From positions 1-40,627 of the forward strand of contig JAHJMN010000121.1 of assembly GCA_018821305.1 (NCBI GenBank): DNA of 40,627 nt, given 5' to 3'. Source of the stretch: Myxococcota bacterium. GTDB lineage: Bacteria; Myxococcota_A; Polyangia; HGW-17. The translations under genes were made by a program, and so were the position numbers. The notes below the pieces were generated by a model. It saw only the letters and a program-made list of their open reading frames with translations, ran no database searches and was not told the origin of the DNA. Numbering within the stretch: position 1 is the first letter of the stretch; the number at the start of each line of letters is the position of its first letter. Positions 1 to 40,267 of this stretch are shown piece after piece.

Positions 1-141
1 ATTCAATTTTTGTCAAAATTGAGCATGTTTACGAAAACATGCTATTCAGAACACTACAATAATTTCAAGGTCTTCATTCTTAATGTCCTGTGATAAAAAT
101 AGTCGTTACCTTGAAAAGATCGTATTACAGGACATTAACTA
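1..141 (+). repeat. Type A intergenic element, copy A1 (left end outside window)
   Basis: This stretch is nearly identical to 6040-6183. It contains a short AT hairpin (AATTTT/AAAATT), then a 9-bp perfect hairpin (AGCATGTTT / AAACATGCT, 4-nt loop) at about 23-44. An inner 12-bp inverted pair follows: TTAATGTCCTGT at 80-91 against ACAGGACATTAA at 127-138. The right end is CAGGACATTAACTA (128-141), a variant of the family terminal motif. The matching left terminus should lie just outside the window. No reading frame is conserved between the copies, so this is probably non-coding. Confidence 0.85.
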
Positions 142-5599: not shown

Positions 5600-6025
5600 A
5601 TGAGAATTGCTGTTGTAGATGACGAATCCTTTATACTTCGATTGATGAAAAAAACTCTTGAGAGAGAGGATTATATCGTTAGAACCTATAAAAACGGTTT
5701 TGACTTTCTGGAAGATTATTCAGAGTTTAACCCTGAGGTAATTTTCCTTGATATACTGATGCCTGGGATGAATGGGATTCAAGTGTATGAATCCGTCAGG
5801 GATATAAATCCTGAACAGACAGTTATTTTCATCAGTGCATATGATTTTACTGGCAAATTGGAACAATATCTCCAACCAGGTAAAGTCGTTTATTTGCCAA
5901 AGCCATTTGGAATCAAAGAACTTCGCGAAATATTAAAAAAAACGGTTGATTCTTATAACCGTGCCAGACGATGTCAGTCAACAGAGTTTGTAGCCGTTGA
6001 TGAAGATGCGGATATCGAGAAATAA
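5600..6025 (+). CDS. Stand-alone response-regulator receiver protein (CheY-like)
   Basis: A 141-aa protein consisting of one receiver domain. The acidic pair is Asp7-Asp8 and the phosphoacceptor is Asp51 (FLDILMPGMNG). The switch residue Ser79 (FISA) and Lys101 in the KPF motif are present, so the domain should be phosphorylatable. There is no output domain; about 25 charged residues follow. It probably relays phosphate or controls a partner by contact. Two hybrid kinases elsewhere in the window could be partners, but nothing links them directly. The terminal motif of a type A element starts one base after the stop codon. Confidence 0.9.
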   Translation: MRIAVVDDESFILRLMKKTLEREDYIVRTYKNGFDFLEDYSEFNPEVIFLDILMPGMNGIQVYESVRDINPEQTVIFISAYDFTGKLEQYLQPGKVVYLPKPFGIKELREILKKTVDSYNRARRCQSTEFVAVDEDADIEK

Positions 6026-6026
6026 A

Positions 6027-6183
6027 TAGTTCGTGTCCTGAAATTCAATTTTTATCAAAATTGAGCATGTTTAGGAAAACATGCTATTCAGAACACTATA
6101 ATAATTTCAAGGTCTTCATTCTTAATGTCCTGTGTCCAAATTTGGTGTAAACTTGAAAAGATCGTATTACAGGACACGAACTA
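6027..6183 (+). repeat. Type A intergenic element, copy A2, with 14-bp perfect terminal inverted repeats
   Basis: This is the one complete type A copy in the window. The ends are TAGTTCGTGTCCTG (6027-6040) and CAGGACACGAACTA (6170-6183), a perfect 14-bp inverted repeat bounding 157 bp. Inside are the AT hairpin, the AGCATGTTT/AAACATGCT hairpin and the inner TTAATGTCCTGT motif (6122-6133), in the same order as copy A1. No open frame of useful length is present. It starts one base after the stop codon of the receiver gene. Confidence 0.9.
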
Positions 6184-6203: not shown

Positions 6204-6387
6204 TCCCTGTTAAAATATTTCAGATAAACAGGAAATCAGTAGCAGTAACAGGAAAACAGGGGGCTCGCTACTGAGGCATTTCTTAAAACCGAGCCACAAT
6301 CGTATTACTCAGGAAACGGTATAGATGTTTTTTCTGAAGCTTGTCTTTAGACCGAGTCACTATCTTTTTACTCAGGAAACGGTCCAG
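6204..6387 (+). repeat. Type B intergenic element, copy B1 (CAGGAA-rich), with an internal 33-bp duplication
   Basis: The stretch aligns with 35290-35400 and with the reverse complement of 29798-29900. Shared marks are repeated CAGGAA/CAGGG, 'GGGGCTC', 'GAGGCATTTCTT', and 'ATCGTATTAC' near the right end. The terminal part ACCGAG..ACTCAGGAAACGGT occurs twice (6288-6320 and 6351-6383; period 63 bp). The end lies about 10 nt from the stop codon of the leftward ABC gene. With A2, this explains the whole 6026-6397 gap. Confidence 0.75.
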
Positions 6388-6397
6388 TTTCTTTATT

Positions 6398-10818: not shown

Positions 10819-11403
10819 ATGATTTTAAAAAGAAACTTTATTGTAACAATGTCCATGGTCGCAGTACTCACAATTTCATGTAAAGATAACAGGACTTCGG
10901 AATGCGCTAAAGCATATGATATGATTAAAAAATGTCTTCCATCTCTTGCAGTTCAAACTAAGGAGCATGGTCGAATATGCGTTGAAACATATAATAAAAG
11001 TTCGACAAGAGGCAGCATCCTCTGTGCAAAGCAATTTTCCAACTGTGAACAGTTCAAAAGTTGTCTTAATTACAGTTCCATGTGTCGCGATTTTACCGGG
11101 AAGCAGTTTGAACCATGTTTGAAATCTGCCGATAAGTGCGCAAATTATAAAGGGATGGAGTTTAAAAACTGCATAAAGTGTATCAATGAAAAGAACAAAT
11201 CCGGTGATGAACTGAACCAATGTATAAAGAGTTCATCAAGTGACAACCTTCCTGTTGCTCCTGTCACTCCCAAAGATAATGCTCCGGCAATGAAACCCGC
11301 TACTCCTGATAATATGACCGCTCCAGCTGCAACTCCCGATAATATGACCGCTCCGGTTGCAACTCCCGATAATATGACTGCCCCCCCACCAGCAATGAAT
11401 TAG
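10819..11403 (+). CDS. Small Cys-rich lipoprotein with TPDNMTAP repeats
   Basis: A 194-aa predicted lipoprotein with lipobox LTISC (Cys21). Residues ~28-140 contain about a dozen cysteines in short helical-looking units (CAKAYDMIKKC, CEQFKSC, CRDFTGKQFEPC, CANYKGMEFKNC), likely paired as disulfides in the periplasm or at the surface. The tail is three near-perfect copies of ATPDNMTAP followed by PPPAMN, probably a flexible wall-spanning linker. I do not recognise a family. The stop codon directly abuts a type C element at 11404. Confidence 0.8.
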   Translation: MILKRNFIVTMSMVAVLTISCKDNRTSECAKAYDMIKKCLPSLAVQTKEHGRICVETYNKSSTRGSILCAKQFSNCEQFKSCLNYSSMCRDFTGKQFEPCLKSADKCANYKGMEFKNCIKCINEKNKSGDELNQCIKSSSSDNLPVAPVTPKDNAPAMKPATPDNMTAPAATPDNMTAPVATPDNMTAPPPAMN

Positions 11404-11670
11404 TTAGTTAATGTCCTGAAATACCGAAAATCAAATTTTTCGCCCGATTTTTGCTCAGGACAGTAACCGCAAGGTGTTGAATTTATTATAGTGGCCTGTT
11501 AGGATTTTTCAAAAATAACGTCGATTTTTCACTCAGGACAGTAACCGCAAGGTGTTGAATTTATTGTAGTGGCCTGTTAGAGATTTTATTAAATTTCTTC
11601 GTGAAGCGAATTTCAGGACACGAATTAGTTCGTTACTATCTTGAAATACGCGAAGTGAATTTCTGCTGGC
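11404..11670 (+). repeat. Type C intergenic element, copy C1, with an internal 78-bp tandem duplication
   Basis: Left end TTAGTTAATGTCCTG (11404-11418) starts at the base after the stop codon. Right end CAGGACACGAATTAG (11614-11628) is its imperfect inverse. The core CAGGACAGTAACCGCAAGG occurs twice (11456 and 11534; period 78 bp). A right-hand palindromic module resembling TTCGCGAAGCGAA is present as TTCGTGAAGCGAA. A decayed second terminus (TTACTATCTTGAAAT, GCGAAGTGAATTTC) extends to about 11670. The element matches 40487-40627 and the reverse complement of 19150-19290. The rest of the 343-bp gap (11671-11746) holds only the ribosome site of the next gene. Confidence 0.85.
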
Positions 11671-14349: not shown

Positions 14350-14373
14350 GGAGAACAGTTGCCAAGTAAAAAG

Positions 14374-14431
14374 AATGTTTTCGTAAACATGCTCAATTTT
14401 GAAAAAAATTGAATTTCCGGACACGAACTAA
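14374..14431 (-). repeat. Type A intergenic element, truncated copy A3
   Basis: Read on the minus strand, this is the left third of a type A element: TTAGTTCGTGTCCGG (14417-14431), the AT hairpin (CAATTTT/AAAATTG, 14394-14411) and the AAACAT/ATGTTT hairpin (14375-14390). The similarity stops there. The terminal motif abuts the stop codon of the leftward kinase gene (14432-14434). Confidence 0.8.
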
Positions 14432-27756: not shown

Positions 27757-27896
27757 GAAATCCACACTTAAAAATAATTACAAACAGTCGATCAGAGAAT
27801 AAATACGCTATCGGGATTACTGAGCAACGGCTGATTATCGTTTCTCAGGTCAATCCGAGAGGGCGGTGGAATTGGTTGAATTAAATGGAGGATATA

Positions 27897-29801
27897 ATGA
27901 ACAGTCAGGTAGACATTTCAAAAGAACTTCTGGAGCTTAACATTGCTCGCTTTATTGATTCCGGAACAGATTTACCTGATAAACTGAGGACCTACGAGGT
28001 AAATGATGGTTTTGAACTTCTGTACTCCAAAACAGGAAAACCTGTTATCAAAAAAGATGGTCTGGCTCTGCAAAGTACTTATGATCCGGAAAAAGAAGCT
28101 TCAAAACGAATAGATGATGTAGATATAGAATTTGTTGAATATTTTGTTGTTTTTGGGTTAGGGATGGGGTACATGCTGAAAGAAATTCGACGTCGTAGTC
28201 CTACTTCGAAAATAATGGTTCTTGAGCCCGATTTAGATGTCTTGTATTTTTCACTTTCGGCAATTGACTATTCTGAATTTGCTCCGGGAGAAGTAATTAT
28301 TCATCATCATCCTGAGGATTTTAGGGCAAATTGTTTTTTTGCCTACCGAACTTCACGTCCCATAACTGTCGTTACGGATCCTCTCTGGATACGTATGTAC
28401 CCTGAAATGCTTTTGCAACTTAGAAAGGAACTTGAGCAGTTTGTTGTTTTTTCAAAAATTTCAGAAAATACAGCAAACTCGAGAATGAGGCAATGGATAG
28501 ACTTTCTTCTTAATAATTTACGATTTGCCGGGAAATATCCATCACTTGGCGACCTGAAGGATAAATATAAAGGAATTCCTGCTGTCATCTGCAGTGCCGG
28601 GCCGTCTCTTAATAAGAATGTTGAAATGCTTAAGGGTTTTGAAGACAATCTCCTGATTATTTCAGTGAATACCGCTTACAGGGCTTTGCATCGTCACGGA
28701 GTACGACCACATCTGGTTAGTGCTATTGAATCATACAATATTAAGAGTCTGTTTGAAGATCTTCCCACAAAGGAAACAAACTTTATTACTACATTGACAA
28801 CCAACCCTGAACTTTTCGAGCTTGATTTCAACAGGACAGTATTTTTCGTTGATTCATATCCCGTCTATAGTCTCTGGCTTGAAAAAGAACTCGGGCAACA
28901 AGCATTTCTTGATGTTGGTGGTTCTGTTGCCTGTGCATCCTTTAGTATCGCTAAATATCTCGGAGCGGATCCAATTATATTGATTGGTCAGGATCTGGCT
29001 TATACAAATGGTCAGTACTATGCAAAAGGGACAAGTTTCGAAGACATTAAACTGGATTTTGATTCAGATACAGGTCGAATAAGAATGAAGAATCTTGAAT
29101 CAAAAGAACGAATATATAAAGATACCGGTACTGATGAAAAAGTTCGCAGTTTGCTGGAAAAGAGAATGGTTCCCGGGTGGTATGGCGATATGGTACCCAC
29201 AAGTGAAGATTTAAACTTCTTCAGGACTTGGTTTGAGTCTATGTCAAGGGTTATGAAAAGGGAAGGGCGGATAGCGATTAATTCAACCGAAGGTGGCGCA
29301 TATATCAATGGTTTTGAACATATCTCACTGCAAGAAGCCCTTGACCGTCATGTCGAAAGAAACAACACGCACAAGTTTGATGATGATTTAAATAAAACAG
29401 CTCCTGCTCCAGATTATTCAATTGAATTACAGGGGGCAATTACCCGAACCCAGAAGGAATTACACGAGATTATTTCTCTTTGCGAAAATATACAGAATCA
29501 ACATAAAATAATTGAGGCTAATGGAATAGAACCCGACAACCCTAATTTTATGAGAAGAATCAAAGAACTGGAAAAACGGGAAAAAAGAATGAACGAGAAA
29601 TCCCACGAATTAAGTCTTCTGCAGGGGTATGCCAGAGAGTTGGTTACAGCAATAAAAACAGATCCTAAGGCTGTGATGGACCTTCCTGCAGAGGAAGGAT
29701 GGGCAATGAATCTTCTACAATCAAAACTTGTGGCAGAAGCCGTTATGATAAGCGCAAAAGATCTTATCTCCAGTATGGATAATGTTTTGAGAAATATTTA
29801 G
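27897..29801 (+). CDS. DUF115 / MptE-like protein (Maf-type glycosyltransferase relative)
   Basis: A 634-aa cytoplasmic protein. The central domain (~200-440) is DUF115/MptE-like, with ICSAGPSLNKNVEML, IISVNTAYRALHRHGVRPHL and GQDLAYTNGQYYAKG. That domain is found in archaeal 6-hydroxymethylpterin pyrophosphokinase and in Maf flagellin nonulosonic-acid transferases. The N-terminal ~190 residues (FGLGMGYMLKEIRRRSPTSK, then VLEPDLDVLYF) resemble the Rossmann-like half of Maf proteins. The C-terminal ~120 residues are helical with coiled-coil potential. Maf-like sugar transfer to a surface protein is the better guess; no flagellin or sugar-synthesis genes are near. ATG 27897 is chosen because GGAGG sits 5 nt before it, overlapping the earlier ATG 27885. 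The stop codon TAG is part of a repeat-family motif. Confidence 0.82.
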   Translation: MNSQVDISKELLELNIARFIDSGTDLPDKLRTYEVNDGFELLYSKTGKPVIKKDGLALQSTYDPEKEASKRIDDVDIEFVEYFVVFGLGMGYMLKEIRRRSPTSKIMVLEPDLDVLYFSLSAIDYSEFAPGEVIIHHHPEDFRANCFFAYRTSRPITVVTDPLWIRMYPEMLLQLRKELEQFVVFSKISENTANSRMRQWIDFLLNNLRFAGKYPSLGDLKDKYKGIPAVICSAGPSLNKNVEMLKGFEDNLLIISVNTAYRALHRHGVRPHLVSAIESYNIKSLFEDLPTKETNFITTLTTNPELFELDFNRTVFFVDSYPVYSLWLEKELGQQAFLDVGGSVACASFSIAKYLGADPIILIGQDLAYTNGQYYAKGTSFEDIKLDFDSDTGRIRMKNLESKERIYKDTGTDEKVRSLLEKRMVPGWYGDMVPTSEDLNFFRTWFESMSRVMKREGRIAINSTEGGAYINGFEHISLQEALDRHVERNNTHKFDDDLNKTAPAPDYSIELQGAITRTQKELHEIISLCENIQNQHKIIEANGIEPDNPNFMRRIKELEKREKRMNEKSHELSLLQGYARELVTAIKTDPKAVMDLPAEEGWAMNLLQSKLVAEAVMISAKDLISSMDNVLRNI

Positions 29802-29955
29802 TTCGTGTCCTTAGTAATACGATAGTGACTCGTTTTAAAGAAATGCTTCAGGAAGGAGCCCCTGATTATCCTGTTCCTGTTCCTGTTCCTGATTCCCTGC
29901 GTTCCTGAAATTTTAAACAGGGAAGCAGGTATTCAGGAAAACAGGTTCAGGATCA
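29798..29955 (-). repeat. Type B intergenic element, copy B2 (reverse orientation), joined to the common terminal motif
   Basis: It begins TTAGTTCGTGTCC (29798-29810), whose TAG is the stop codon of the DUF115 gene, followed by TTAGTAATACGATAGTGACTC. Its reverse complement matches 35257-35400 over most of its length: GATCCTGAACCTGTTTTCCTG, the CAGGAACAGG repeats, and GGGGCTC.TTCCTGAAGCATT. A short tandem TTCCTG run (CCTGTTCCTGTTCCTGTTCC) lies inside. The remaining bases to the hairpin at 30030 show nothing recognisable. Confidence 0.8.
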
Positions 29956-30029
29956 GCGGTTAAACATTCAACATCAATGCATAATTACAAAGGGCAGAAT
30001 GAAAACATTCACTTTTAACGTTTCGATCC

Positions 30030-30129: not shown

Positions 30130-32421
30130 TCAATTGGTAGGATCTGGCTTTTTAAGATCAGCAATCAAATCACTTATATCAACTTGTATCGTTTCCTGAT
30201 CCGAGTTATTTAAACGATTCGCTAAATCACTTATTTCTTTTGGAATCATAAACTCTCCGCTCATCGTTGTCGTATGCCCCACCGTTGAAGGTGATAAGAC
30301 ACGGTCTTTCTGAAAATTAATGATAAAGCTGTCATCCTCATGAATTTCCTGAGGATCCAAATCGACAGAATCACTTACCATTTCATCAGGAAGGCTTTCA
30401 AAAAGTGAGTCACCTGAATTTTCCAATGGGGGTGGTGGACTGTCAAGGCTCAAATTGGATATATCAAATGAACCGCTTGTTACATAGCTTCTTGAATTTT
30501 TATTTTTATCAGGAAGGTTTTTGGGAGGTGGATTTAAAGAAAAAATGAAGTCTTCTTCGGAATGAGAGGAGTTATCAGTATTGTCATCAGGATCGGGAAT
30601 AAGTGGCAATTCAGTGGTTTTAGATACCTGCCCAGTATTACTGTTTTTGCTGCTTCCGATTTTGTTATTGAAATCCGGGATGTCGTCACCGGGGGAAGAA
30701 GGGAGCGCTTCAAAATCCGGGATGTCGTCACCGGGGGAAGAAGGGAGCGCTTCAAAATCGGGGATGTCGTCACCGGGAGAAGAAGGGAGCGCTTCAAAAT
30801 CCGGAATACTTTCGCCAGGTGAAGTATCAGGAGTCTTTTTAATTTTTTTCAGTTCTGCCTGATCAGTGTCACTGCTTTGGATATCACTAATTGCAGCCTG
30901 ATCAGTATCGGGTCCTGTCGCCTTAAATTCAATGTGGGCTTGATCCGTATCTATTTGTTTCTTATTAGCATTATCAGTATCTTTGTTGACATTATTAAGG
31001 TTGAAAGTGACTGCAGTATCTGTATTCTTCTCAGGCTTTTGTTGATTCTGCTTGTCAGTATCCATCCTCTCTCTATTTGTTTTTGATTTTTGAGCGATAG
31101 ATTCGTTGTTAATAAAATCAGTTTCAATTGAGTCTGAAACAGGGTTGCTGTCTTCTATTTCTCCGGTGGGGGCGTCATTAAATGATTCATTGAAAAGGGG
31201 AGAATTCACTTCGTCTGAGTTGTCACTTGTTAAAAGATTCTGTTCTGAAGGAGATTCATCTCTGATTTCTCCTGTAACTTCCACGTGGATTGAGTTGTTA
31301 TTTCCATCAGGTGGAGGCGGTGGCGGCGGTGGTGGCGGTGGTGGAGGTGGTGGCGGCGGCGGCGGCGGCGGTAAGTCGTTAGAAGAGTAAAACCCTCCGC
31401 TGTCTGGGCTATCAATCAGGTTGATACCAACGTCTGTGGGATCTGCGGTGTCAAAAATAAATTGATTCATAAGCCGGACATCCTCTTGAATGTCATCAGC
31501 GAAAAGATCATTCATTCTTTTACTTACTTTTTCAGTTGAAAATCCCGGGGCACTTATCTTCAGGTAGTGACCGAGAGCTTTTGAAAAATCCTCAGCAGAT
31601 TGGTATCTGTGGATTCGATCCACGGACATGGACTTTATAATAATTGTCTGAAGCATCGCGGGGATTACAATACCATGTTGCTTTATTGGTTTAAATCTAC
31701 CAGCTTTTGCGGCTTCGAGAAGATCTGAATCTGGTATATGAGCATAAGGAGAAATTCCGGTAACCATCTCATATAAAACACAGCCCATCGAAAATATATC
31801 AGTTCGTCTGTCGAGCTCCCATGCTCGGGCCTGTTCTGGGCTCATGTACCTTAATTTGCCTTTGACGACACCACTTCGAGTTTGAATTCTTGAGAATTTG
31901 ACTTTTGCAATTCCAAAGTCGCATAGTTTTACCGCACCATCAAAACCGATGAGAATGTTACTTGGACTGATATCTCTATGTACTATATTAAATGGGTCGC
32001 CCTTTTCATTAACGGCATTATGAGCTAAAGCAAGAGCATCAAGAGCTTTTTGGATAATATATGCACTGTGGAAAAAGCCAAGGGGATGCCCCAGTTCTTT
32101 TATGCGGGAAACAACAGTCTTGATATCGCGGCCATTTACAAGCTCCATTGCCATGATATATTCATTGGAAAGCTCATTGAATTCAAGGACCTGAACGATA
32201 CCCTCATTGTCGAGAATCCGACTGATTCGCCCCTCAATGATAAGTGATTCAACAAGATCAGGGTTTCCTTTGGGGATTCTTTTTATTGCGGCAAATTTCT
32301 GCTCGCCATTAGAATCCCTGTAGATTCCTTTATAAATCTCGCCCATGCCGCCAACAGCAATAACGTTAAGTAGTTGATATCTACCTAGTCTTTTTAAATT
32401 GTTATGTTCAGTAGAATTCAT
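30130..32421 (-). CDS. Hanks-type Ser/Thr protein kinase with polyproline and tandem-repeat tail
   Basis: A 763-aa kinase. The catalytic domain spans ~10-290: glycine loop AVGGMGEIYKG, Lys in FAAIKRI, catalytic VHRDISPSN, DFG as LCDFGIAK, activation loop to LRYMSPEQA. The long C-terminal half is disordered and acidic. It has an uninterrupted run of 21 prolines, repeated DTDQA/DTDK/DTDN motifs, three near-identical 14-aa units (DDIPDFEALPSSPG) plus flanking diverged copies, and a Ser/Asp-rich end. No transmembrane helix is present, unlike many bacterial PASTA-type kinases. The repeats may be docking or autophosphorylation sites (inference). ATG 32421 has AGGAAAAG upstream; the longer TTG start at 32469 would lie upstream of the probable -10 box. 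Confidence 0.9.
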   Translation of the reverse strand: MNSTEHNNLKRLGRYQLLNVIAVGGMGEIYKGIYRDSNGEQKFAAIKRIPKGNPDLVESLIIEGRISRILDNEGIVQVLEFNELSNEYIMAMELVNGRDIKTVVSRIKELGHPLGFFHSAYIIQKALDALALAHNAVNEKGDPFNIVHRDISPSNILIGFDGAVKLCDFGIAKVKFSRIQTRSGVVKGKLRYMSPEQARAWELDRRTDIFSMGCVLYEMVTGISPYAHIPDSDLLEAAKAGRFKPIKQHGIVIPAMLQTIIIKSMSVDRIHRYQSAEDFSKALGHYLKISAPGFSTEKVSKRMNDLFADDIQEDVRLMNQFIFDTADPTDVGINLIDSPDSGGFYSSNDLPPPPPPPPPPPPPPPPPPPPPDGNNNSIHVEVTGEIRDESPSEQNLLTSDNSDEVNSPLFNESFNDAPTGEIEDSNPVSDSIETDFINNESIAQKSKTNRERMDTDKQNQQKPEKNTDTAVTFNLNNVNKDTDNANKKQIDTDQAHIEFKATGPDTDQAAISDIQSSDTDQAELKKIKKTPDTSPGESIPDFEALPSSPGDDIPDFEALPSSPGDDIPDFEALPSSPGDDIPDFNNKIGSSKNSNTGQVSKTTELPLIPDPDDNTDNSSHSEEDFIFSLNPPPKNLPDKNKNSRSYVTSGSFDISNLSLDSPPPPLENSGDSLFESLPDEMVSDSVDLDPQEIHEDDSFIINFQKDRVLSPSTVGHTTTMSGEFMIPKEISDLANRLNNSDQETIQVDISDLIADLKKPDPTN
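30679..30804. repeat. Three 42-bp tandem repeats in the Ser/Thr kinase gene
   Basis: Units start at 30679, 30721 and 30763, each beginning GATGTCGTCACCGGG on the plus strand, and are nearly identical at DNA level. A diverged copy follows to about 30830. Each encodes 14 aa of the kinase tail. The DNA identity points to recent expansion, so copy number may vary between strains. Confidence 0.9.
31309..31371. repeat. GGN trinucleotide tract encoding 21 prolines
   Basis: Sixty-three bases of GGC/GGT/GGA (plus strand) encode an unbroken polyproline run in the leftward kinase. Such runs normally need elongation factor P for translation and are prone to length change. The mirror Gly-run frame on the plus strand is an artefact. 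Confidence 0.9.
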
Positions 32422-32449
32422 CTTTTCCTGATGCAACGAAACAGAAATT

Positions 32450-32476
32450 AGTATATTCTGAATTACCAAATGACAA
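32450..32476 (-). promoter_or_regulatory. Candidate promoter of the Ser/Thr kinase gene
   Basis: On the minus strand, TTGTCA (32471-32476) and TATACT (32450-32455) are separated by 15 bp. Transcription would start near 32443, about 22 nt before the ATG at 32421. The spacer is short, so this is tentative. Confidence 0.4.
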
Positions 32477-35159: not shown

Positions 35160-35402
35160 CTGGACCGTTTGCGTAATAAAAGGCTCGAAATCTGGAAATT
35201 GAATTAAAAATTACGTTATTTTTAATTATTAATTGCTATTGAATGGTTACGACCTGATCCTGAACCTGTTTTCCTGACTTCCTGCCTTCCTGTAAAAATC
35301 AGGAACACAGGAAATCAGTATCAGAAACAGGGCAATCAGGGGCTCATTCCTGAAGCATTTCTTTAAAAAGAGTCATAATCGTATTATTGGGGAAGCGGTA
35401 TA
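35160..35402 (+). repeat. Type B intergenic element, copy B3
   Basis: The core (35257-35402) matches copies B1 and B2: GATCCTGAACCTGTTTTCCTG, repeated CAGGAA/CAGGG, AATCAGGGGCTC, TTCCTGAAGCATTTC and AATCGTATTA..GG.AAGCGGT at the right end. The left end at 35160 (GGACCGTTTGCGTAATAAAA, then GGCTCG) is an imperfect inverse of the right end, suggesting terminal inverted repeats for type B. It fills most of the 311-bp gap between mazG and the leftward membrane-protein gene. Confidence 0.75.
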
Positions 35403-35410
35403 TTGGGAGA

Positions 35411-36700
35411 TCAGTGGGCTTCAGTTTCAGGCTGGGCTTTAAATAGACCCCATTTTGCAAAGAACCAATCATTCCAGAGAAGGGGAATAATCCACCAGAA
35501 GTTCCATATCAGGGATTCCCCATGAATAAAACGATTTGGCATGCTTGTCATATGACTATTTCCAAGAGCCCACTTACCGAAATTGCCATAATAGTAGATG
35601 ATGTACAGAACTGCAGCTGCAAGGAGGACTCCGACAGTTCTAAAGGCAAAGGCTGACCACGAGTCAGTATCTTTAACTGGAGAGCGGTCTTCAAAATAAT
35701 GATGCCAGATCAGGAAGGGGATCAGTGTGAAACCCGCAATTTCCGCCGCATGATACCAGAGGAATCGAATATATTCCGCATCACCCTTTGATTTAAGAGC
35801 AGCAATCGTGTCACTTCCAATCCATAATGGAGCCAGTTTTACACAGATAATTGCCATTAAGTATCCAATGGCGAATACACCTATCAGTGAGATAAGACCT
35901 TTGAGTGGTTGACCTATTTTAATTAAATTCCAGGGTTTTCCTCGCCATACGTTTGCGGTCATAAAAAGGGCAATGATGGACCATTCCCACCAACCGAAAA
36001 CCCAGTGGAGATGTGCTGTTCCATTGATCTTTCCCCACCATGGAGTTCCCATCCCAATGGATGCTCCATATACTTCCGAATAAATATATCCCCAGAATGG
36101 AACTATAAAGGGGACAAAGAAAAACAGTGTTACCAGTGAAGTCCAACCTAATTCGGCGGTTCCTGCTTGAGGTTGCTCAAGATTACTTGGGCGTATGGGC
36201 CACTTGCCAAAAAGAATTGTGATTACAGGATATGTAAAGAAACCAATAAGAACAAAGGAAACAAGTGCTCTTTCTGCCATGTGACTGGTCTTTAGTCCTT
36301 CAAGGGACATTGATTTACCCGCAATTACAAAAGATTTGCCAGATGCGATAAGTGAATCGATGTTTGATTGACTAAGGAAATTAAATCCAAGGCCGAGAAT
36401 CCGATAAAAAACAACGTGAATGACGAATAATGTGAGAAGGAGATTCATGACTGTCATAACAACGCCCTTAACAGGTTGTTTGAGCTTATGAAATGGCCAA
36501 TCTCCGAAAAGCATATGCTGCCATAAACCCACGAGGATCATTACTGCAAGATACATAACGAATGGATATGGAAAAAGCTTAACTAATCCTCTGGGATCAC
36601 TGAAAATGAACCAGGAAATCATCGCCAGTGCTAGAAATACGAAAAACGAGATTATTCCTGTCAGTGGCTGACCAAACCGCGAAACAGAATTGTGGGACAT
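35411..36700 (-). CDS. Polytopic membrane protein with four QPxxG repeats
   Basis: A 429-aa integral inner-membrane protein with about ten hydrophobic segments. A unit beginning near GxW/P...QPxxG followed by a helix recurs at residues 11 (QPLTGIISF), 75 (QPVKGVVMT), 176 (QPQAGTAEL) and 264 (QPLKGLISL), so the protein probably arose by internal duplication. Membrane-embedded histidines and aromatics (HLHWVFGWWEW, LWYHAAEIAG, LIWHHYF) could bind metal or haem, but this is speculative. I do not recognise the family. ATG 36700 has AAAGGAG 8 nt before it, so it is preferred over the longer frame to 36730. It is transcribed alone, divergent from the subtilase. Confidence 0.75.
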   Translation of the reverse strand: MSHNSVSRFGQPLTGIISFFVFLALAMISWFIFSDPRGLVKLFPYPFVMYLAVMILVGLWQHMLFGDWPFHKLKQPVKGVVMTVMNLLLTLFVIHVVFYRILGLGFNFLSQSNIDSLIASGKSFVIAGKSMSLEGLKTSHMAERALVSFVLIGFFTYPVITILFGKWPIRPSNLEQPQAGTAELGWTSLVTLFFFVPFIVPFWGYIYSEVYGASIGMGTPWWGKINGTAHLHWVFGWWEWSIIALFMTANVWRGKPWNLIKIGQPLKGLISLIGVFAIGYLMAIICVKLAPLWIGSDTIAALKSKGDAEYIRFLWYHAAEIAGFTLIPFLIWHHYFEDRSPVKDTDSWSAFAFRTVGVLLAAAVLYIIYYYGNFGKWALGNSHMTSMPNRFIHGESLIWNFWWIIPLLWNDWFFAKWGLFKAQPETEAH

Positions 36701-39691: not shown

Positions 39692-39704
39692 AAAACCCGA
39701 ATTA

Positions 39705-39718
39705 CAGGACAGTAACTA
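39705..39718 (-). repeat. Isolated copy of the repeat-family terminal motif supplying a stop codon
   Basis: On the minus strand TAGTTACTGTCCTG; its first three bases are the TAG stop of the leftward 183-aa gene. Only this end is present, in a 24-bp gap between convergent genes, 13 nt after the subtilase stop codon. Confidence 0.7.
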
Positions 39719-40267
39719 TTTATCTTCAGGATCATCTTCAGGGGGCTTGGGAGGTTTGCGACCTTTTTTGGGGCGTGGGGGCTTTTTAGGTTCTGGAAAA
39801 TCTACAATATCTTCAAGACTGAAATATTCTCCCGTTTGAGAGTTCTTGGGAAAAGATAAAATTGATGCATTTTTGGCATCCAATACAGTTCTGGACGAGG
39901 TTGTTTTTCCAGAACTTCTTGCGATTGTCAGAAGCCGATGGTTCAGATCCGGCAGATCACGGATGATGATGTCTTTAACTTCTTCTTTTAGTATAAGGTT
40001 TTCAACGCCATCAAATAAAGTCAGCAGTGAAACAGCGTCAGGTGGAAGTCTTTCTTTTAGCCATAGCCAGCCCATTGGTGCGCTCAGTGAGACATCTTCC
40101 CACTTGATCCAGTTGCCTTCCTGACCAGTAACAGGATCTTTACATTTGAAGGTTCCGTCTTCGTCCACATATGCAATAATATAAGCTTTTCCAATAATGT
40201 AGCTGTGCCCGTTGGAGTTGCGAACGGGATAAATGATTGTTCCTTCTTCTTGAGGAGGTATTGCCAT
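39716..40267 (-). CDS. Unknown soluble 183-aa protein with Lys/Pro-rich tail
   Basis: No family recognised. The N-terminal ~60 residues look like a beta-rich fold (GTIIYPVRNSNGHSYIIGKA, then AYIIAYVDEDGTFKCKDP), and a short helical middle follows (PPDAVSLLTLFDGVENLIL). The last ~30 residues are PEPKKPPRPKKGRKPPKPPE followed by an acidic DDPEDK, a charged extended tail. No signal peptide or transmembrane helix is seen. AAGGATC lies 9 nt before the ATG. The stop codon is formed by the repeat-family terminal motif. Confidence 0.65.
   Translation of the reverse strand: MAIPPQEEGTIIYPVRNSNGHSYIIGKAYIIAYVDEDGTFKCKDPVTGQEGNWIKWEDVSLSAPMGWLWLKERLPPDAVSLLTLFDGVENLILKEEVKDIIIRDLPDLNHRLLTIARSSGKTTSSRTVLDAKNASILSFPKNSQTGEYFSLEDIVDFPEPKKPPRPKKGRKPPKPPEDDPEDK

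Follow-up and report, generated by a model that had tools for sequence, protein, structure and literature searches.

Systems comparable to the repeats analyzed here have been described both as MITEs and as IS. Correia/NEMIS, RUP and the ERIC-like RU-1 are A+T-rich MITEs of <200 bp with inverted repeats, TA ends and target duplication, and for RUP the passages of PMC2229807 that deal with it propose a co-resident IS as the mover. For MITEAba12 and its co-resident parent ISAba12, part of PMC6382973 reports common ends and a common duplication length. Among the IS, a passage of PMC10194956 assigns ISRm17 to the ISDol1 group of ISNCY. Rhizobial copies of the ISRm17/ISRle10 type have TAGTGCC ends and mostly TA-GWC-TA flanks, and several of them lie in tandem.

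The repeats of the Myxococcota genome studied here share their length, A+T-richness, inverted repeats, TA ends and target duplication with the Correia/NEMIS, RUP and RU-1 type. Unlike these, they have 2 bp (NN) between the TAs and are linked to another transposase family, and their terminal TAG regenerates stop codons, which is not described in the relevant passages of PMC2229807. The MITEAba12/ISAba12 pair differs by its 9-bp duplications, and the gene-end case in that part of PMC6382973 involves truncation instead of a preserved stop. The likeness to ISNCY/ISDol1 consists in TAGT-starting ends, outer TA on both sides, tandem copies that share a short spacer, and a transposase that shares about 28% identity with rhizobial ISNCY transposases; the difference lies in the spacer, which is 3 bp (GWC) in most of the rhizobial copies read and 2 bp (NN) here. 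The repeats have a stop-safe property, and ends, duplication and target are now given for an ISNCY-like IS and its MITEs. We consider it very probable that the repeats are non-autonomous MITEs which an ISNCY-like DDE transposase moves in trans into TA-NN-TA targets, and that stop-safe insertions have been enriched by selection.

Repeat anatomy and target site

Our sample covers 2.28 Mb of the 5.22-Mb draft genome, with every terminus oriented and 1708 genes called by our own simple hexamer-based caller; the draft assembly breaks at these repeats. The window, i.e. the whole stretch of 40,627 nucleotides that was analyzed, breaks off within repeats at both ends (1 and 40627), as do many other contigs.

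The terminus, TAGTTNNTGTCCTGWAAT, is arranged as inverted pairs, and copies have discrete lengths of 65, 145/146 and 157 bp. Genome-wide there are 527 exact 18-bp termini, versus 1 for the reversed pattern. The repeats are short, non-coding and multi-copy with inverted-repeat ends, as expected for MITEs, and a 2-bp target-site duplication is present in 42 of 52 intact pairs (3 bp in one pair). TA is found beyond the duplicated bases on both outer sides in 36 of the 52. This 2-bp identity and the outer TAs define the target as TA-NN-TA, of which NN (2 bp) is duplicated; the first-pass annotation had proposed insertion at a TA-, TAG- or TAA-containing site, which was right and can now be given in this exact form. 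A 6-bp duplication of the entire TANNTA is rejected, a 6-bp match being present in only 1 of the 52 pairs. About one third of the outer termini are without TA at -4/-3. The TAG in front of 348 element bodies is almost fixed (T in 300, A in 305, G in 321) and therefore belongs to the element. In 31 of 33 pairs of neighboring copies the spacer is exactly 2 bp, as would follow if every junction, reading TA-NN-TA anew, regenerates the target. The repeat family was looked for in 19 relatives and not found, and contig scans for close relatives found none.

Candidate transposase

The sole DDE_Tnp_1 match in the genome is a 478-aa open frame at the beginning of contig C216. The model that fits this transposase best, by a wide margin, is NCBIfam ISNCY_1 (NF033593, E = 1e-87), with a score of 294.4 bits that stays below the curated cut-off of 325. 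An exact terminus, followed by TT-TA, lies 186 bp past its stop, and its 5' end recurs at six other contig ends; all five whose sequence was inspected have TAGTTCGTGTCCTGAAAT, preceded by TAAC or TATT. The MITE ends are common to this autonomous element, both at the right end on C216 and at the five left ends read. About seven junctions represent the IS with the same 18-bp ends; no single assembled piece contains the full element, and the assembly has collapsed it to one copy. One of the recurrent left ends is immediately preceded by the TAA of a gene that we take, from its C-terminal sequence, to be flgG-like.

Distant relatives of the same class end in TAGTTCCCGTCCC or TAGTTGGCGGTCC and are flanked by TA-GG-TA or TA-GC-TA. 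TAGT is invariant over the six aligned ends, and the terminal TAG is therefore older than the present genome. TAGT termini combined with TA-2/3 bp-TA flanks are likewise the arrangement of ISRm17/ISRle10 in the ISDol1 group. On these sequence features, the mover is likely a co-resident ISNCY-like IS of the ISDol1/ISRm17 type.

Other candidates were rejected. A search among the assembled genes for a terminus-flanked transposase gave ten candidates, which are ordinary genes or have no Pfam match, and a search for rve-type transposases gave no match. Three Y1_Tnp genes are present and the copies contain internal hairpins, as would suit REPINs with a Y1 (IS200-like) transposase as mover, i.e. repeats without target duplication. 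Here 2 bp are duplicated, which does not fit a Y1 mover (Y1 transposition is not known to yield a 2-bp target duplication), and the repeats have the same ends as the DDE element; Y1 is already contradicted by these two observations, and we give it practically no probability.

Element termini at stop codons of the window

Five termini had been reported in the first-pass annotation to supply or abut stop codons, at 29799, 39716, 6025, 11403 and 14432, and all five are as claimed. The features concerned are the following.

27885-29801, plus strand: MptE-like / Maf glycosyltransferase gene, terminated by the element TAG
29799-29812, plus strand: relic terminus TAGTTCGTGTCC(TT), which with its TAG provides the stop of gene 27885-29801; runs on into the body of another repeat family (family 2)
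39716-40267, minus strand: gene without Pfam match, terminated by the element TAG
39692-39718, minus strand: truncated terminus of 27 bp, whose TAG is the stop of gene 39716-40267
6027-6183, plus strand: complete 157-bp MITE with target TAAATA, 1 base past the TAA (6023-6025) of a response-regulator gene
11405-11627, plus strand: composite copy with GT duplicated, 1 base past the TAG (11401-11403) of gene 10819-11403
14369-14430, minus strand: half copy, 1 base past the TAA (14434-14432) of a histidine-kinase gene
1-141, minus strand: copy cut by the contig start, away from stop codons
40488-40627, plus strand: copy cut by the contig end, away from stop codons

The in-frame stop is the TAG of the terminus itself at 29799-29801 (plus strand) and 39718-39716 (minus strand). 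At 6025, 11403 and 14432 the stops are TAA, TAG and TAA, each followed by exactly 1 base and then the TAG of the element, this spacing being reckoned with TAG as the element start. The window termini at 141 (minus), 6183 (minus) and 40488 (plus) have no contact with any stop. The copy at 29799 is an odd hybrid, in which the exact 12-bp terminus of the first family is fused to a second-family body. The C-terminus of gene 10819-11403 contains three 30-bp repeats (11299-11388) that code for ATPDNMTAP-like units.

Registers and enrichment at stop codons

For 207 exact outer termini, the same-strand stop lies at offset -4 in 12 and at offset 0 in 15, with none at -3 to -1. Offset -4 means that the stop begins 4 bases upstream of the T in TAG, with 1 base between stop and element; at offset 0 the stop is identical to the element's own TAG. 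Unoccupied TANNTA sites that are non-coding or at stops are found in the same two registers (49 at -4, 44 at 0, none at -3 to -1), and the register is therefore a target-site effect. There are only two registers because TAA and TAG contain TA.

According to our model, a transposase of the same genome would cut TA-NN-TA with a 2-bp stagger, and the element TAGTT...AACTA would insert such that both junctions read TA-NN-TAG. A stop formed by the first TA (register -4) is left intact, one base before the element, and a stop formed by the second TA (register 0) is restored as TAG at the same codon by the G of the element, in either orientation. Insertions at stops are silent because this G restores TAG. 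The rule for sitting harmlessly on a last codon is simple: the target provides TA, and the next base of the element restores TAG.

Free non-coding TANNTA sites lead to an expectation of 3.9 termini at -4 and 3.5 at 0; against all non-coding sites, 27 are observed where 7.5 are expected, an approximately 3.6-fold excess (combined p = 1e-8). The expectation under which the first-pass annotation would have given up its proposal, no enrichment at stops beyond intergenic placement, does not describe these data, and much of the excess is common to the first 40 bp after stops. Per TANNTA site, occupancy reaches 0.25 and 0.34 at stops, compared with 0.17 in the zone 10-40 bp beyond them and 0.05-0.07 at greater distances. 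When stops are compared with the 10-40 bp zone, the difference is not significant for exact termini (OR 1.7, p = 0.11) and is significant with one mismatch allowed (OR 2.1, p = 0.011). We infer that tolerance of silent insertions close to gene ends accounts for most of the stop excess, though this is not a full explanation. Most insertions within genes would be purged by selection, leaving the protein-neutral ones at stops over-represented.

One could also suppose that the transposase is actively directed to stops by more than the DNA sequence, e.g. via translation termination. TANNTA at stops shows a 3- to 5-fold higher occupancy than other non-coding TANNTA, an excess that is also present when the duplications are intact (10/66 copies, p = 0.02). 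Against this, the 10-40 bp zone is likewise enriched and differs little from the stops, and unequal tolerance of insertions accounts for the pattern without a new mechanism; active direction thus appears very improbable to us. Somewhat less improbable, though still unlikely, is the broader proposal that stops are a preferred niche, with TAG kept for silent insertion or targeting coupled to translation termination, and that the family is adapted to gene ends and reshapes stop usage.

Protein ends

Protein ends were compared with those of a same-genus genome in which the repeat family was not found. In 14 element-stopped genes with element-free orthologues, the stop position is mostly identical to the codon and otherwise differs by a few residues. 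The ends of gene 27885-29801 and its same-genus orthologue are one residue apart. For gene 39716-40267 the unaligned tails measure 35 versus 42 residues, and both close with an acidic stretch, K and TAG (...DPEDK-TAG versus ...DDDDK-TAG in the orthologue). Empty sites were reconstructed for 16 paired stop-supplying copies: the junction has TAA or TAG in 12 and a non-stop codon in 4. Ten of these 12 adjoin non-element sequence; the other two precede another copy and are uninformative. The earlier suggestion that an element-made stop implies a C-terminus different from that of orthologues was wrong for the cases tested, in view of the 14 orthologues and of empty sites that are usually TAA or TAG.

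These comparisons also bear on the possibility that the stop association is an artefact, in which elements interrupt genes and their TAG truncates them. Clear interruptions do occur, i.e. C105:24099 (a paired stop-supplying copy also classed in this way), three cases at offset +4 and about 11 arrays within ORFs. With 14 orthologues whose stops coincide or lie only a few residues apart, and TAA or TAG at the junction of 10 of 14 informative empty sites, truncation is largely refuted as a general account, and its probability is very small. A stop supplied by an element need not signal a truncated gene.

In the preferred reading, silent insertion at a stop, the TAG would be required from then on, and the outer bases may persist while the remainder decays. 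Degraded termini with two mismatches are commoner among stop-supplying termini (13/37 versus 20/249, p = 3e-5), an excess that is consistent with selection holding TAG during this decay.

Gene context

A role as 3'-end module selected to sit at mRNA ends had also been considered in the first-pass annotation. This reading, with the repeat retained at transcript ends as terminator or mRNA stabilizer, could appeal to the peak occupancy at stops and 10-40 bp beyond, and to certain copies that fold well as RNA, e.g. 6027-6109 (z -3.9). It is unsupported because copies are as dense in divergent regions as in convergent ones: by type of gap, element clusters per kb amount to 0.82 (co-directional), 0.67 (convergent) and 0.68 (divergent), and divergent gaps are without any gene 3' end. 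Furthermore, a facing stop is absent within 400 bp for 110 of the 207 termini, and the stop-associated copies at 14369 (z -0.9) and 29799 (z -0.7) fold no better than shuffles. An Rfam search of the repeat gave no match, and together with the RNA folding this leaves a terminator role unsupported. We regard a 3'-end module as very improbable.

Second repeat family and stop-codon usage

A second MITE-like family has ACCGCTT ends, YTAR-like targets and a 4-bp duplication that is often CTAG; the window contains copies at 29799-29991, 6220-6396 and 35219-35412. Among second-family copies in a TAG context, 16 of 98 lie exactly at stops, and in this family the duplication itself preserves the stop. 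For the first family, exact TTNNTGTCC follows the stop in 28 of 333 TAG, 0 of 732 TAA and 0 of 627 TGA cases (p = 7e-21), i.e. 8.4% of the sampled TAG stops are formed by element ends. With at most one mismatch, TAG stops at the end of either family number 68 of 333 (about 20%). Mobile DNA measurably shapes stop-codon usage in this genome.

Repetitive sequence of other kinds is also present. Gene 363-2936 contains repeated cysteine-rich CGNG...GEECDDGN motifs at 476-1528, and gene 30130-32469 (minus strand) has internal 42-bp tandem repeats at 30671-30824. Outside the window, about six tandem flagellin-like genes are clustered on contig C22 (L156, 1-7134).
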